Assembly: GCF_014191375.1 (NCBI RefSeq)
Contig: NZ_JACHWN010000013.1
Location: 1-64,000, forward strand
Length of the DNA: 64,000 nt
Direction of reading: 5' to 3'
DNA from: Mesorhizobium sp. RMAD-H1
GTDB lineage: Bacteria; Pseudomonadota; Alphaproteobacteria; Rhizobiales; Rhizobiaceae
A model generated the notes under the pieces. That model had not been told where the DNA came from and did not search any database. It saw only the letters and a list, made by a program, of their open reading frames with translations. Positions 19 through 22,528 of the stretch are shown in pieces (position 1 is the stretch's first letter; each line of letters opens with the position of its first letter). The translations under genes and the position numbers were made by a program.

Positions 19-95
19 CGCGGGGTGGAGCAGCCCGGTAGCTCGTCAGGCTCATAACCTGAAGGCCGCAGGTTCAAATCCTGCCCCCGCAACCA
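19..95 (+). tRNA. Initiator tRNA-fMet (CAU)
   Basis: A 77-base cloverleaf with encoded CCA end. The anticodon loop is CTCATAA (CAU anticodon). The first base C faces A at position 72 in the acceptor stem, so the top pair is a mismatch, which is the hallmark of bacterial initiator tRNA. The T loop reads TTCAAAT. The last 13 bases (83-95) recur at 22233-22245, so this gene is the probable integration target of the element that follows. Confidence 0.95.
83..95 (+). repeat. Left att core (3' end of tRNA-fMet)
   Basis: GCCCCCGCAACCA, the 3' end of the initiator tRNA, is repeated exactly and in the same orientation at 22233-22245. Integration into a tRNA 3' end typically restores the tRNA and leaves such a direct repeat. 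Because identity is only 13 bases, and the tRNA end is itself a common sequence, the assignment also relies on the serine recombinase gene ending at the other copy. Confidence 0.6.
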
Positions 96-138
96 ATTCA
101 AGCATAAATCGCTCATTATTGCGATTTAACAATCGCTT

Positions 139-164
139 AGGCCGCCTCCGGGCGGGCCTTTCTC
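139..164 (+). terminator. Probable Rho-independent terminator after tRNA-fMet
   Basis: A GC-rich hairpin (AGGCCGCC and GGCGGGCCT arms around TCCG, one unpaired base) is followed by a T-rich run. It lies 44 bases after the tRNA. If the element really begins at base 96, this terminator belongs to the element. If it is the native tRNA terminator, the left boundary would need rethinking. Confidence 0.6.
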
Positions 165-212
165 ATTTGAGGTAGGCCGAATATCGGCCGTCCCGACCGA
201 AACCTTGTGCGT

Positions 213-995
213 TCAATGGTCTTCCGTTTTGATGGGATAGTGCAACAGCAGGCGATAACCGTCGCGCATCATCTTGAGAGCGTGGGCGACGAGGCGGCGG
301 GCCTTGTTCTTGCGTGGATCGACTTCCCAATCCCCCTTAGTGCCCCTGAACCCGAACAGCACTTCGGCGATGGTGCGATAGCTCTCGCCGTGCAACCGTG
401 CGTCCAAGGCGCGTAGCGACAGGATGTGCCCTTGGCGGAGTTGGGGGGCATGACCCGAAAGTCCGGCCCCGGTCGGCGGCCTTCGACGGAGCGCCAGAAC
501 CGCCGGGCAGCATGGGATCGCAGTTCGTAGAAGGCATCCAACGGCAAGAACGTGCCATAGACGACCGCAGCGTGGGGCGCGGTGCGGGGCAGCCACAATT
601 GATGCGCGATGCCATCGGCCCGCCAGATGCCGTGCCAACCATCAGCGGCGCGGCGCAGGTCGAGGCCGTCGAGAAGGGCCAGCCTGGCTCTCGGCCCCCT
701 CGTGCCGGTTTCATGCGTGACGGGCAACAGCTTGATAGCGTTCGGATACACGCGCGGAGACCAGAGCGGAGTTTGTAGATCAGCCGCCGTGTACGGGTCG
801 CTTGGGAAACAGCAAGCCCCAGCGGTCCGCAAACGATTCGAGTTGTTTCACGCTCTGCCTATGGGCCAGTGCCAGCGCCTGGCAGTCGTCGCGATATTCT
901 CCGTTGCGGCGCAGATACTCCCAAGCGAAGCGGGGGGCAGCAAGCTGCCACATGTACCCGTAGGCCGAATGGTGCCACCACTCGATATGCAGCAT
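213..995 (-). pseudogene. DUF6499/DUF2285-type element protein, double frameshift
   Basis: The N-terminal part has the tryptophan/aromatic pattern of DUF6499 (FAWEYLRRNGEYRDDC). The C-terminal part (RTIAEVLFGF, then KARRLVAHALKMMRDGY) resembles DUF2285. Such fused proteins are common in alphaproteobacterial integrative elements and are often called regulators, though their role is not established. A start at 995 has a GGAGTGA ribosome site. The reading frame slips near 804-809, in a run of C and T on the coding strand (one extra base). It slips back near 428-432 (one missing base), so about 125 codons in the middle are out of frame. Both ends are in the same frame. It is either a true pseudogene or two sequence errors. 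Confidence 0.7.
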
Positions 996-1150
996 GGCGT
1001 CACTCCCTCCATGCCGGGCTCTGATTGGATGAGCGACGCGAATGGAATCCGCGACCCGAGCGCGGTCGGCACTCCCCAATGACGGTCAACAATCGGTACT
1101 GAAGGCCATCGCCGACACATTTCAATTCCTTCTTCGCATCGGCTTGCGGA

Positions 1151-20184: not shown

Positions 20185-20320
20185 AGGCGGATTGCGATTT
20201 ACGTCGAAACCGCAACGCGCAAGTATTTACCGCCGACAGCTCTACACACGATTTTTGCGCTTCCCATCGGCGTTTGTCCGCATCTTTTGTCAGGTCGATC
20301 CACAGTTCGGAGCGACCTAC

Positions 20321-20569
20321 ATGCCAGAAGACAAGCATACCGGACCGGAAACCATCGTTCCGGCGAACGACAATACCCCGCCCACCGGCGATACTGCCGA
20401 TGCAGATATCGCGCCGGGGGTGAAGCTGGACAGGGTGGTGTTCGATATCGCCCGCGTGATCGGCAGGCGGATGGCGAGAGAAGATTTTGAGCGGCTGCGT
20501 GCCGCCACCGTCAACGATAACAGTCCCGGCCATGTCGGAGAGACGGAGGACGGGACGGAGACCGAATAG
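20321..20569 (+). CDS. Small element-associated hypothetical protein
   Basis: 82 residues, acidic at both ends, with a conserved-looking centre KLDRVVFDIARVIGRRMAREDFERLRA. A GGAGCG site lies before ATG 20321. It ends 21 bases before the serine recombinase start and is probably co-transcribed with it. Comparable small proteins precede such recombinases in related elements; the role is unknown, perhaps a directionality or accessory factor. Confidence 0.6.
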   Translation: MPEDKHTGPETIVPANDNTPPTGDTADADIAPGVKLDRVVFDIARVIGRRMAREDFERLRAATVNDNSPGHVGETEDGTETE

Positions 20570-20590
20570 ACCGAACGGAGAACCGCCCCC

Positions 20591-22381
20591 ATGTCCCGAC
20601 TTGTGTCCCGCGCAGCCCTTTATGCTCGCTATTCGTCCGACAACCAGAGCGAAACGTCTATAGAAGACCAGTTCCGGCTTTGCCGCGAACATGCGGGCCG
20701 GGAGCGCTGGCAGATCGTCGGTTCCTATGAGGACGCCGCCATATCGGGATCGAGCACCATTTTGCGTCCCGGCATCCAGCGGCTTGTACGGGACGCCCAG
20801 CGCGGGGACTTTGATATTCTGCTCGCGGAGGCGCTGGACCGCATCAGCCGCGATCAGGCCGACGTTGCCACCCTCTACAAGCATTTGAAGTTCGCAGGCG
20901 TTACCATCGTCACGCTGGCCGAGGGGGAAATCTCAGAACTGCATGTCGGTCTGAAAGGCACGATGAACGCGCTGTTCCTGAAAGACCTTGCGATGAAGAC
21001 CCATCGCGGCCTGCGGGGCAGGGTAGAGAAGGGCAAGGCCGGGGGAGGGCTCTGCTACGGCTATCGTGTGTTGAAGAAGGTCGACGCCAATGGCGAGCCG
21101 ATCCGGGGCGACCGGGAGATCGTGCCGGAGGAAGCCGAAATGATCCGGCGCATCTTCCGCGAGTTTGCGTCCGGCAAGAGCCCCAAGGCCATTGCCAGGG
21201 ATCTCAACCGCGAAGGCGTTCCCGGTCCGCTCGGCCGTGCCTGGGGCGACACCAGCATTCGCGGTCATGTCCGCCGGGGAACGGGCATCATCAACAACGA
21301 GCTTTATGCAGGCGTTCTGGTCTGGAACCGTCTGCGATACATCAAGGACCCTTCCACCGGCAGGCGCGTTTCGCGCATCAACCCGGAAAGCCAATGGATC
21401 AGGACAGAGGTTCCGCATCTCAGGATCGTGGACGATGAGCTATGGAACGCCACCCGTGCGCGGCAGCAACAAATATCGGCCATCTTCGGGCCGAACCCGG
21501 CCAGCAGCCGCGAAGAACGCATGAAGCGCGTTCATCTGGCGAACCGGCCTGTTTCGCTTCTTTCCGGGCTTCTCATTTGCGGATGCTGCGGCGGCAAGGT
21601 CGGCATCATCACGCCGAACCGCTATGCCTGCTTCAATCATCACCGGCGTGGCACCTGCAGCAACAACCGCACCATCACCCGCCAAAACATCGAGGCGCGA
21701 GTGCTGACCGGCCTCAAGGAAAGACTGGTGTCGTCGGAAGCCGTTGCGGAAGCCGTGAAGGCCTATGCGGCGGAGATGAACCGCCTGAACCATGACCGCC
21801 GTGCGCAAGCCGCCGCCGATCAGAAAGCTCTCGCCAGGATCGAAAAAGCCATTGCGGGCATCATCGCCGCCATCGAGGAAGGCATGTACCAGCCATCCAT
21901 GAAGGCGCGGATGGACGAGCTTGAATGGCAGAAGGCGGAAATCATCGCCCGCATGGCGCAGATTCCAACGGACGTTCCCGACATCCACCCCAATATCGCC
22001 AATGCCTACCGGCTGCGCATCGAGCGTTTCACCGAGGCGCTGAACGACCCTGAGGGCGGCAGGCAGGCGGCGGAAGCGCTGCGCTCGCTCATCGGTGAAA
22101 TCGTGCTCACACCGGGAGCCAAGCGGGGCGAGGTCCATGCCGAGCTACGCGGCGAGTTGTTCGGCATCCTCGACTTCGCGAAGGCTGAAGAAACCAATCG
22201 TCCAGCCGGTTTTATGCCAGCAGTTGCAACGAGCCCCCGCAACCATACTTCGTCGCAATCCCGCCGCACACGCCGCGGGGTTTTTGCGTTTGGCCGAAAG
22301 CCCAGGAATCCCGCCAAGATCACCCCCAACACCGATCTCCATCCCTGTCGTCACCGGCGTCAGCACAATGCCGTCAATTAG
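20591..22381 (+). CDS. Large serine recombinase (site-specific integrase)
   Basis: 596 residues. The N-terminal resolvase domain holds the catalytic serine around residue 15 (ALYARYSSDNQSETSIEDQ) and AEALDRISRDQ. The recombinase domain follows at about 165-290, then a zinc-ribbon (CGCCGGK, CFNHHRRGTC) and a coiled coil near 385-450. It would integrate and excise the element. The 3' end reads through the repeated 13-base core (codons ATSPRNH), so the last 45 residues are encoded partly outside the element and depend on the insertion site. The natural tail in the excised form would differ. Confidence 0.92.
   Translation: MSRLVSRAALYARYSSDNQSETSIEDQFRLCREHAGRERWQIVGSYEDAAISGSSTILRPGIQRLVRDAQRGDFDILLAEALDRISRDQADVATLYKHLKFAGVTIVTLAEGEISELHVGLKGTMNALFLKDLAMKTHRGLRGRVEKGKAGGGLCYGYRVLKKVDANGEPIRGDREIVPEEAEMIRRIFREFASGKSPKAIARDLNREGVPGPLGRAWGDTSIRGHVRRGTGIINNELYAGVLVWNRLRYIKDPSTGRRVSRINPESQWIRTEVPHLRIVDDELWNATRARQQQISAIFGPNPASSREERMKRVHLANRPVSLLSGLLICGCCGGKVGIITPNRYACFNHHRRGTCSNNRTITRQNIEARVLTGLKERLVSSEAVAEAVKAYAAEMNRLNHDRRAQAAADQKALARIEKAIAGIIAAIEEGMYQPSMKARMDELEWQKAEIIARMAQIPTDVPDIHPNIANAYRLRIERFTEALNDPEGGRQAAEALRSLIGEIVLTPGAKRGEVHAELRGELFGILDFAKAEETNRPAGFMPAVATSPRNHTSSQSRRTRRGVFAFGRKPRNPAKITPNTDLHPCRHRRQHNAVN
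22233..22245 (+). repeat. Right att core, copy of tRNA-fMet 3' end
   Basis: GCCCCCGCAACCA is identical to bases 83-95 and in the same orientation. It lies inside the 3' end of the recombinase gene. On the minus strand its complement encodes the MVAGA residues typical of proteins that end at tRNA-fMet att sites. The distance between copies gives an element of about 22.1 kb. Confidence 0.65.
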
Positions 22382-22528
22382 CGCGCGGATCGCATCCGCC
22401 GCCTCCCTGCGCTTCTGCTCGGAATGGTGCTGGAGTGCCTCGTAGAGTTGTTGCACGCGTTGATGGTATTGCATGCTCTGTTCGGAAGCAGAAGGCGAGG
22501 CGGGTTGCCGGCCGGCATTAAAAGCCAT
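22246..22528 (-). pseudogene. 3' fragment of a second serine recombinase
   Basis: The minus strand encodes YHQRVQQLYEAL, then REAADAIRALIDGIVLTP and GDLGGIPGL, then MVAGA at the att core. This matches the C-terminal end of the plus-strand recombinase (LRIERFTEAL, AAEALRSLIGEIVLTP, GELFGILDF). Only about the last 90 residues remain. It points toward the core from the right, opposite to the intact recombinase. The simplest reading is a remnant of another element once integrated at the same site. Confidence 0.75.

Follow-up and report, generated by a model that had tools for sequence, protein, structure and literature searches.

We report that the 64,000-nucleotide stretch of Mesorhizobium sp. 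RMAD-H1 analysed here (the window) carries an integrated element of 22,150 bp at the 3' end of an initiator tRNA gene (tRNA-fMet), and we propose that the element was placed there by its own large serine integrase. In this proposal the attachment site (att) of the element's circular form, attP, lies inside the integrase gene, integration exchanges the C-terminal tail of the enzyme, and an element with a related integrase had occupied the site before. We give this reading a probability of roughly 0.8. The integrase of the window and its near homologues, which end at the core on the far side of the element, are called clade A, and the more distant homologues clade B. The boundaries, a paralogous empty site (on contig C8 of the same assembly), the integrase family, the reading frame and the tail can be read directly in the DNA. 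The features concerned are:

19 to 95, plus strand: tRNA-fMet, the target gene, its 3' end restored by the element (ARAGORN; same as bases 1-95 of contig C8).
83 to 95, plus strand: core of the left attachment site (attL), GCCCCCGCAACCA, an exact repeat; putative crossover dinucleotide CC at 84-85, placed by the centre of symmetry in relatives whose attP-like sites are contiguous.
96 to 129, plus strand: right arm of attL, which in the excised circle would encode the integrase end and its stop codon TAA at 127-129.
96 to 22245, no strand: integrated element, 22,150 bp including one core copy (direct repeats; the other tRNA-fMet as empty site; eight further elements with both ends).
20591 to 22381, plus strand: large serine integrase of clade A; the codons from 22246 are host-side DNA when the element is integrated.
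22233 to 22245, plus strand: core of the right attachment site (attR), an exact repeat within the integrase reading frame.
22246 to 22528, minus strand: 3' remnant of a clade-B serine integrase, from an earlier element at the site (69% over 54 amino acids, tblastn).
22260 to 22345, no strand: stretch recurring downstream of the other tRNA-fMet (C8 110-194), 85 of 85 aligned bases identical, with one single-base indel.

The original prediction, made from the letters of the window, had described a direct repeat of the tRNA-fMet 3' end, and this is borne out: the 13-mer GCCCCCGCAACCA is found exactly at 83-95 and 22233-22245, both on the plus strand, with no third exact copy in the window. In the whole assembly (5.14 Mb, 21 contigs) it has three forward copies, namely the 3' ends of two tRNA-fMet genes and the right core, and no reverse-strand copy; a control pattern read backwards also gave none. 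Core matches with two mismatches were considered as a sign of additional att sites and rejected, the window holding four against 3.3 expected, so that only exact copies carry weight. An intact tRNA at one end and its 3' fragment at the other, in direct orientation, is the layout of a tRNA-integrated genomic island. The element had been drawn from 19 to 22528; its presence stands, but its span is 96-22245, and the tRNA and the remnant lie outside.

Contig C13 begins where the window begins, 18 bp before tRNA-fMet, and contig C8 opens with the identical 95 bases. Because a 5S rRNA gene stands just before tRNA-fMet in five of six related loci examined (two of the five being one genome; the sixth is truncated at a contig end), the breaks of both contigs probably fall within an rRNA operon. 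The target is most likely a tRNA-fMet at the end of such an operon; the tRNA-fMet query was matched in 36 of 41 related genomes. After its tRNA-fMet, C8 continues with 14 differing bases (6 of 14 match) and then with sequence found right of the element in the window. These 14 bases aside, this is the arrangement expected without 96-22245, and the other tRNA-fMet of the genome would thus serve as the empty site. A species-level empty site was also sought through the permease of the right flank, whose best match outside the genome reached only 46% identity (24 relatives searched); the paralogous tRNA copy was therefore taken instead.

The 14 differing bases (22246-22259) lie directly right of the core, between the C8-identical stretches 1-95 and 22260-22345. 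An A-type end of Acetobacter thailandicus (L168) begins after its core with 14 bases identical to those of the L089 flank in the same genome. Both cases suggest the exchange of a short block next to the core.

The product of 20591-22381 combines PF00239, PF07508 and PF13408 (Pfam) in one chain, the domain content of a large serine integrase, and matches the TP901-1 integrase in a comparison with PDB sequences. Its predicted fold aligns over most of its length to PDB serine integrase complexes (best E 4e-19), with low template-modelling scores (TM-scores of 0.26-0.46 in the best two rows) that perhaps come from domain placement or model quality. As the original prediction stated, this intact recombinase reads through the right repeat, its frame crossing 22233-22245. 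To collect homologues, 41 related genomes were searched at the protein level and named genomes were scanned, the best 80 of the loci listed being kept. Six A loci of related genomes have the core at the integrase 3' end (G005:C10, G001:C35, G004:C8, G021:C10, G003:C22 and G005:C16), one of them with a 1-base core variant, and the integrases of G003:C22 and G005:C16 are broken or partial. Among the matches listed, 15 of the 17 closest named loci (L074-L090, 63-88% identity) have the core at the integrase 3' end in the same orientation, with 0-1 mismatch, which lends support to the earlier suggestion of serine integration at tRNA-fMet. Where more distant homologues have a core, it is on the opposite strand, and the integrase adjoins the core, and often the tRNA, facing it. 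The B integrases compared share 48-62% identity with the A integrase of the window.

Altogether 91 integrases were labelled, 20 as A, 50 as B, 19 as lacking a recognised core, one as doubtful and one as lying at a contig end; six labels were set by hand (L121, L131 and L137 as B, with a tRNA end at three mismatches, L025 as A, L091 as contig end and L152 as doubtful). On a tree of 90 rows, with L025 left out, the difference between A and B amounts to one change. Set against all other rows, label A needs three changes and label B six, because core-less clades lie between; these share a larger group with A, and the long-branched B row L133 stands unresolved beside A. The opposite orientation of the integrase is a clade trait. 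The expectation that homologous recombinases have no att sites elsewhere fails for some relatives: the 19 of 91 integrases without a recognised core include a sister clade of 13 and the close homologues L080 and L084, so that specificity for tRNA-fMet belongs to clades and not to the whole family.

The core-less clade of 13 (L105, L106, L108, L109, L111-L113, L116, L123, L124, L126, L129 and L130) is formed nearly entirely by sphingomonads. In most members of this sphingomonad-rich clade the integrase closes with a motif resembling the A left arm (GTTATAACAAAGGTG...) and a stop, and the flanks vary; the clade therefore probably uses another target. L080 (Xanthobacter, 71%) and L084 (Brenneria, 69%) are close A-clade integrases that have no core, possibly after a change of target.

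Nine elements have tRNA and distal core on one contig, and their sizes, worked out by hand from the end coordinates, range from 3.3 to 87.8 kb: G021 (3.3 kb), G242 (11.5 kb), Rhizobium tropici PTD1 (14.3 kb), Brucella pecoris (19.1 kb), a Hyphomicrobiaceae metagenome-assembled genome (MAG; 19.2 kb), the window (22.2 kb), a Rhodovibrionaceae MAG (53.0 kb), Labrys KNU-23 (83.9 kb) and G090 (87.8 kb). For four of the nine, contigs of two collections were matched through their equal length; for Labrys the lengths differ slightly and the coordinates agree. G043 and G238 look like one genome and were counted once among the nine.

The inverted-repeat centre of contiguous sites places the putative crossover at core positions 2-3 (CC) in both A sites and in 7 of 11 B contexts; three of the four discordant B contexts have a tRNA-like left arm. 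When the flanks of one site were shuffled 2000 times, about 6% of the trials reached the observed pairing at one centre or another; the weight therefore rests on agreement between sites. We infer a crossover at CC, a dinucleotide that is not palindromic and hence fits a fixed orientation. To judge from the sequences compared, the clade A core is inverted relative to the integrase gene when set beside clade B.

The arm that follows the tRNA in A elements is conserved (NTTCNNNCATAAATC) and was recognised in 9 of 16 genomes searched, the others giving no tRNA match, a contig end or a different arm. In the excised circle this arm would supply the integrase with the tail QFKHKSLIIAI, 11 residues of which the first codon is common with the core, closed by the stop TAA at 127-129. 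The predicted circle-form integrase would have 562 amino acids; in the window the core is followed by 44 host-coded residues (both counted by hand). Anchored on a conserved motif, the core start falls in one and the same phase of the integrase frame in all 15 A and all 48 B rows (rows without the anchor motif, 4 of the 19 A and 2 of the 50 B, were left out), the distance from motif to core taking three values in A and ten in B. An in-frame stop before the core occurs in one of the 48 B and none of the 15 A rows. In clade B the frame continues into antisense tRNA sequence; in 35 of 48 its stop lies in the anticodon loop, 44 bases beyond the start of the core. In clade A it stays open across the core and closes after 11 codons in all 12 arms found after the tRNA; none of 78 other arms after tRNA-fMet has its first stop at codon index 11. 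Selection on four bases only gave 18 distinct arms, all with the stop at codon index 11, against none of 131 other core contexts taken as control. Two of these 18 (G090 and G242) come from genomes drawn after the tail had been predicted, a sample of eight that yielded two new arms, one repeat of a known arm and five genomes with none. The tail is kept in 18 of the 19 known A ends, L168 included in the count, and its ratio of nonsynonymous to synonymous polymorphism (pN/pS) is 0.46 in frame versus 0.96 and 1.36 in the other frames (14 arms). Integrase, core and tail are contiguous in the records of Agrobacterium a22-2 (L087) and of an Agrobacterium T29 plasmid (L185). Integrated A frames stop 17 to 251 bases past the core start, three of 15 running beyond the stretch read; the stop of L087, at 47 bases, is that of the tail itself. 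Since the A frame runs through the core into a conserved 11-codon end, integration is predicted to swap the integrase C-terminus. A frame that crosses attP and a C-terminus altered by integration are the marks of Mx8- and rumA-type elements, and both are found here, L168 being the exception.

Several observations weigh against this reading. The empty site is a paralogous copy and not a sister strain, the 14 nucleotides beside the core differ, and no same-species strain without the element was found. As 13 of the 15 A rows share one motif-core distance, constant phase means little for A alone and the weight of the phase argument rests on B. The 18 arms are related, near-copies included. L168 (Acetobacter thailandicus) has an A-type left end, recognised by 190 nucleotides aligned to the A end of L119 and lying outside the four-base rule, that stops at codon index 3, its start being replaced by bases that follow a tRNA elsewhere in the genome. 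Both contiguous records have a damaged integrase gene, the L087 frame being open only from 9913 and L185 being annotated in pieces, and an intact tailed integrase was not seen in either. The structure model is uninformative on the tail: its mean predicted local distance difference test score (pLDDT) is 69, and residues 537-596, a stretch that takes in the core-coded and host-coded end, are below 50 and unordered. Finally, a portion of the arm may owe its conservation to a binding site.

This last point leads to the alternative that survives best, although we hold it to be unlikely, in which the arm is conserved only as DNA, serving as one half of attP together with an additional site for a protein; the open frame would be a by-product and the tail functionless, with element and orientation as described above. 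The arm start mirrors the attP left arm, indicating that a DNA-level constraint exists, the chromosomal tail is replaced by ends as varied as the stop positions given above, and the frame is lost in one A-type end (L168). However, substitution is frame-specific, both over the whole tail and in codons 5-11 alone (pN/pS 0.52 versus 0.98 and 1.08); all three stop codons occur at one position, serine is kept as TCN or as AGT (arm of L157), and phase is constant over the ten distances of clade B.

It is far less probable, indeed very improbable, that a tyrosine integrase or some other enzyme inserted the element and that the serine gene is a passenger. Such a reading would agree with the use of tRNA targets mostly by tyrosine integrases, as described in the available part of one study (PMC4383910), but no tyrosine integrase was found among the 20 open reading frames (ORFs) that were scanned, a subset of all ORFs. 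In addition, a serine integrase of the family sits at the core in the 15 of 17 listed loci mentioned above, the contiguous sites have attP-like symmetry and even the 3.3-kb element of G021 carries the serine integrase. The element is therefore not of the Islander type, which has a tyrosine integrase where a serine integrase here sits at the core. That the 13-bp repeat is chance or an assembly artefact of the rRNA operon, with no discrete element, can be dismissed almost entirely: the contig does begin at the tRNA, a likely assembly break, but the single non-tRNA copy of the 13-mer in the assembly is located at the integrase end, relatives have the same structure and a paralogous empty site exists.

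Returning to the proposed serine integration, the site appears to have been used more than once. The original prediction saw a second recombinase end facing the core. Right of the core this stands, residues 18-71 of the minus-strand ORF 22145-22528 matching a B-type integrase C-terminus (69% over 54 amino acids); to the left of the core the ORF is just the opposite strand of the intact integrase. The same B remnant follows the other tRNA-fMet copy (contig C8). With flanks examined to 2500 bases (L074, L078, L083 and L088 falling short by more than 600), a B integrase lies beyond the A core in nine clear cases of 23, window included (tblastn), and seven of these span more than 400 residues. A tenth case, L086, was a weak match, probably to antisense tRNA, and was not counted. 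No distal core of the B element was found in the assembly, and B is therefore considered a remnant. The remnant at the other tRNA-fMet and the nine of 23 A cores with B support the suggestion of repeated integration followed by loss of most of the second element. A elements would have entered between the tRNA and a resident B element, giving convergent integrases at one core.

Four further sites were observed in this context. In L042 (G018:C15), at about 1570-1890, tRNA-fMet is followed by partial copies of its 3' end in tandem (154-bp spacing), and the same is seen in L036 at 4288-4415 (G002, apparently Paramesorhizobium deserti, 115-bp spacing); these copies are perhaps scars of repeated events. 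L086 (Thalassospira) has a near-complete tRNA-fMet match (69 bp, 96%) at about 11796-11864, some 150 bp beyond the A distal core. On the reverse strand of L119 (Acetobacter estunensis), an A-type arm in the tail frame follows a core with a B-end-like left arm, possibly a B-A junction.

Serine recombinases at transfer-messenger RNA (tmRNA) and att sites within integrase genes are already known from the accessible text of the papers cited here. Among the open papers listed we found no serine integrase at tRNA-fMet, and an earlier mention, for instance in supplements or the TIGER data tables, is possible. A close parallel is offered by the ssrA islands of Dehalococcoides, where the serine recombinase DsiB acts at the tmRNA 3' end; as far as the available text goes, they resemble the element in having a direct repeat, tandem islands and an integrase gene that overlaps the att site with its stop outside the island (PMC3146451). 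They differ in the tmRNA target, which here is tRNA-fMet, and in a second, small recombinase, DsiA (PMC3146451); no second recombinase was found among the 20 scanned ORFs, no search with the DsiA sequence having been made. Their integrase faces the target gene, as in clade B, and its C-terminus is described in that text as divergent, not conserved (PMC3146451). The streptococcal integrative and conjugative elements of rumA likewise have att inside a serine integrase gene, whose 3' parts are exchanged and whose C-terminus changes; they differ in an altered protein-gene target and a frame change, and a conserved tail does not figure in the text seen (PMC4701971). The Myxococcus phage Mx8 also carries attP within its integrase gene, and integration replaces 112 residues by 13, the changed enzyme being less active, but this is a tyrosine integrase according to the parts of the sources consulted (PMC4701971, PMC4383910). 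Islander tRNA islands, in the same available text, share the duplicated tRNA 3' end, the restored gene and tandem arrays, and are tyrosine, not serine, systems (PMC4383910). Two groups of streptococcal rpmG integrases use one target in opposite orientation, as A and B do; in the accessible sections they are tyrosine integrases with 21% identity between groups (PMC4701971, PMC5357655), as against 48-62% between the B integrases compared here and the A integrase of the window. In M. abscessus, the sixteen tRNA/tmRNA sites named in the available text belong to tyrosine systems (PMC10654092). What appears to be new here is an A frame that would run through the core, end after the same 11 codons and lose them on integration.

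The interior of the element holds the following features.

2639 to 3694, minus strand: alpha/beta hydrolase, cargo (Pfam).
3789 to 4664, plus strand: LysR regulator, cargo (Pfam).
5659 to 8661, plus strand: TraA-type (MobQ) relaxase-helicase (NF010464, 1774 bits; TIGR02768; PF03389).
10765 to 15756, minus strand: FAD/NAD-binding protein, methyltransferase, PLP (pyridoxal phosphate)-dependent lyase/aldolase-like protein and O-methyltransferase, cargo (Pfam).
16577 to 17617, minus strand: HEPN-domain protein, cargo (Pfam PF05168).
18468 to 18725, plus strand: small helix-turn-helix regulator (weak PHROG matches, best E 1e-5).
20135 to 20569, plus strand: 144-amino-acid protein of no recognised family, upstream of the integrase gene (no Pfam or PHROG match).

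The element has its own integrase and a relaxase, as integrative and mobilizable elements do, and no conjugation pore protein was found among the 20 scanned ORFs, one of which is the remnant. A relaxase without a pore protein in this set fits an integrative and mobilizable element, which on these grounds it probably is. The 144-amino-acid protein, with similar sequences in 11 of 21 A loci and 17 of 62 other loci, is a candidate accessory or directionality factor. The region 10765-15756 lies mostly at a G+C of 0.50-0.56, much of it at 0.50-0.52, where its surroundings have about 0.6, and resembles a small biosynthetic cluster that travels as cargo. A phage origin was rejected, all 693 phage records matched being below 60% identity, and so was a defence cargo: PADLOC gave no clear system among 10 proteins, and the relaxase matches resemble common helicase domains. 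That the element ends bring their own transcription terminators was suggestive by eye; a scan returned none at 19-320 and one of chance level at 22200-22900, away from the core, and the idea was dropped. Outside the element, the amino-acid permease of 22952-24394 has a duplicate at 31281-32695, matched in two overlapping pieces (74% and 68% identity) and possibly broken.

Recombination activity, circle formation, transfer and any role of the tail in directionality are inferred from these features, along the following lines. The large serine integrase would insert the circle into the tRNA-fMet 3' end with a crossover at core positions 2-3, the element supplying a copy of the tRNA end that leaves the tRNA intact. 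In the circle, the integrase frame would pass through the core into the conserved 11-residue tail; in the chromosome, the tail codons would remain on the tRNA side and 44 host-coded codons would take their place. A B-clade element in the opposite orientation would have occupied the site first and decayed to its integrase tail. More tentatively, the tail might act as an integration-state switch, a proposal that we regard as possible and rather doubtful at present: the circle would make a tailed integrase fit for integration, and integration would amputate the tail, leaving an enzyme unable to reintegrate or favouring another reaction. On this view two related clades of serine integrases, in which attP is turned round with respect to the integrase gene, would have become specialists for the initiator tRNA at the end of rRNA operons.

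As one-way tools for genome editing, serine integrases are valued, and the control of their direction is a long-standing question. The family described here would provide enzymes that in nature have one C-terminus in the free element and another in the integrated one, at a target that is widespread.

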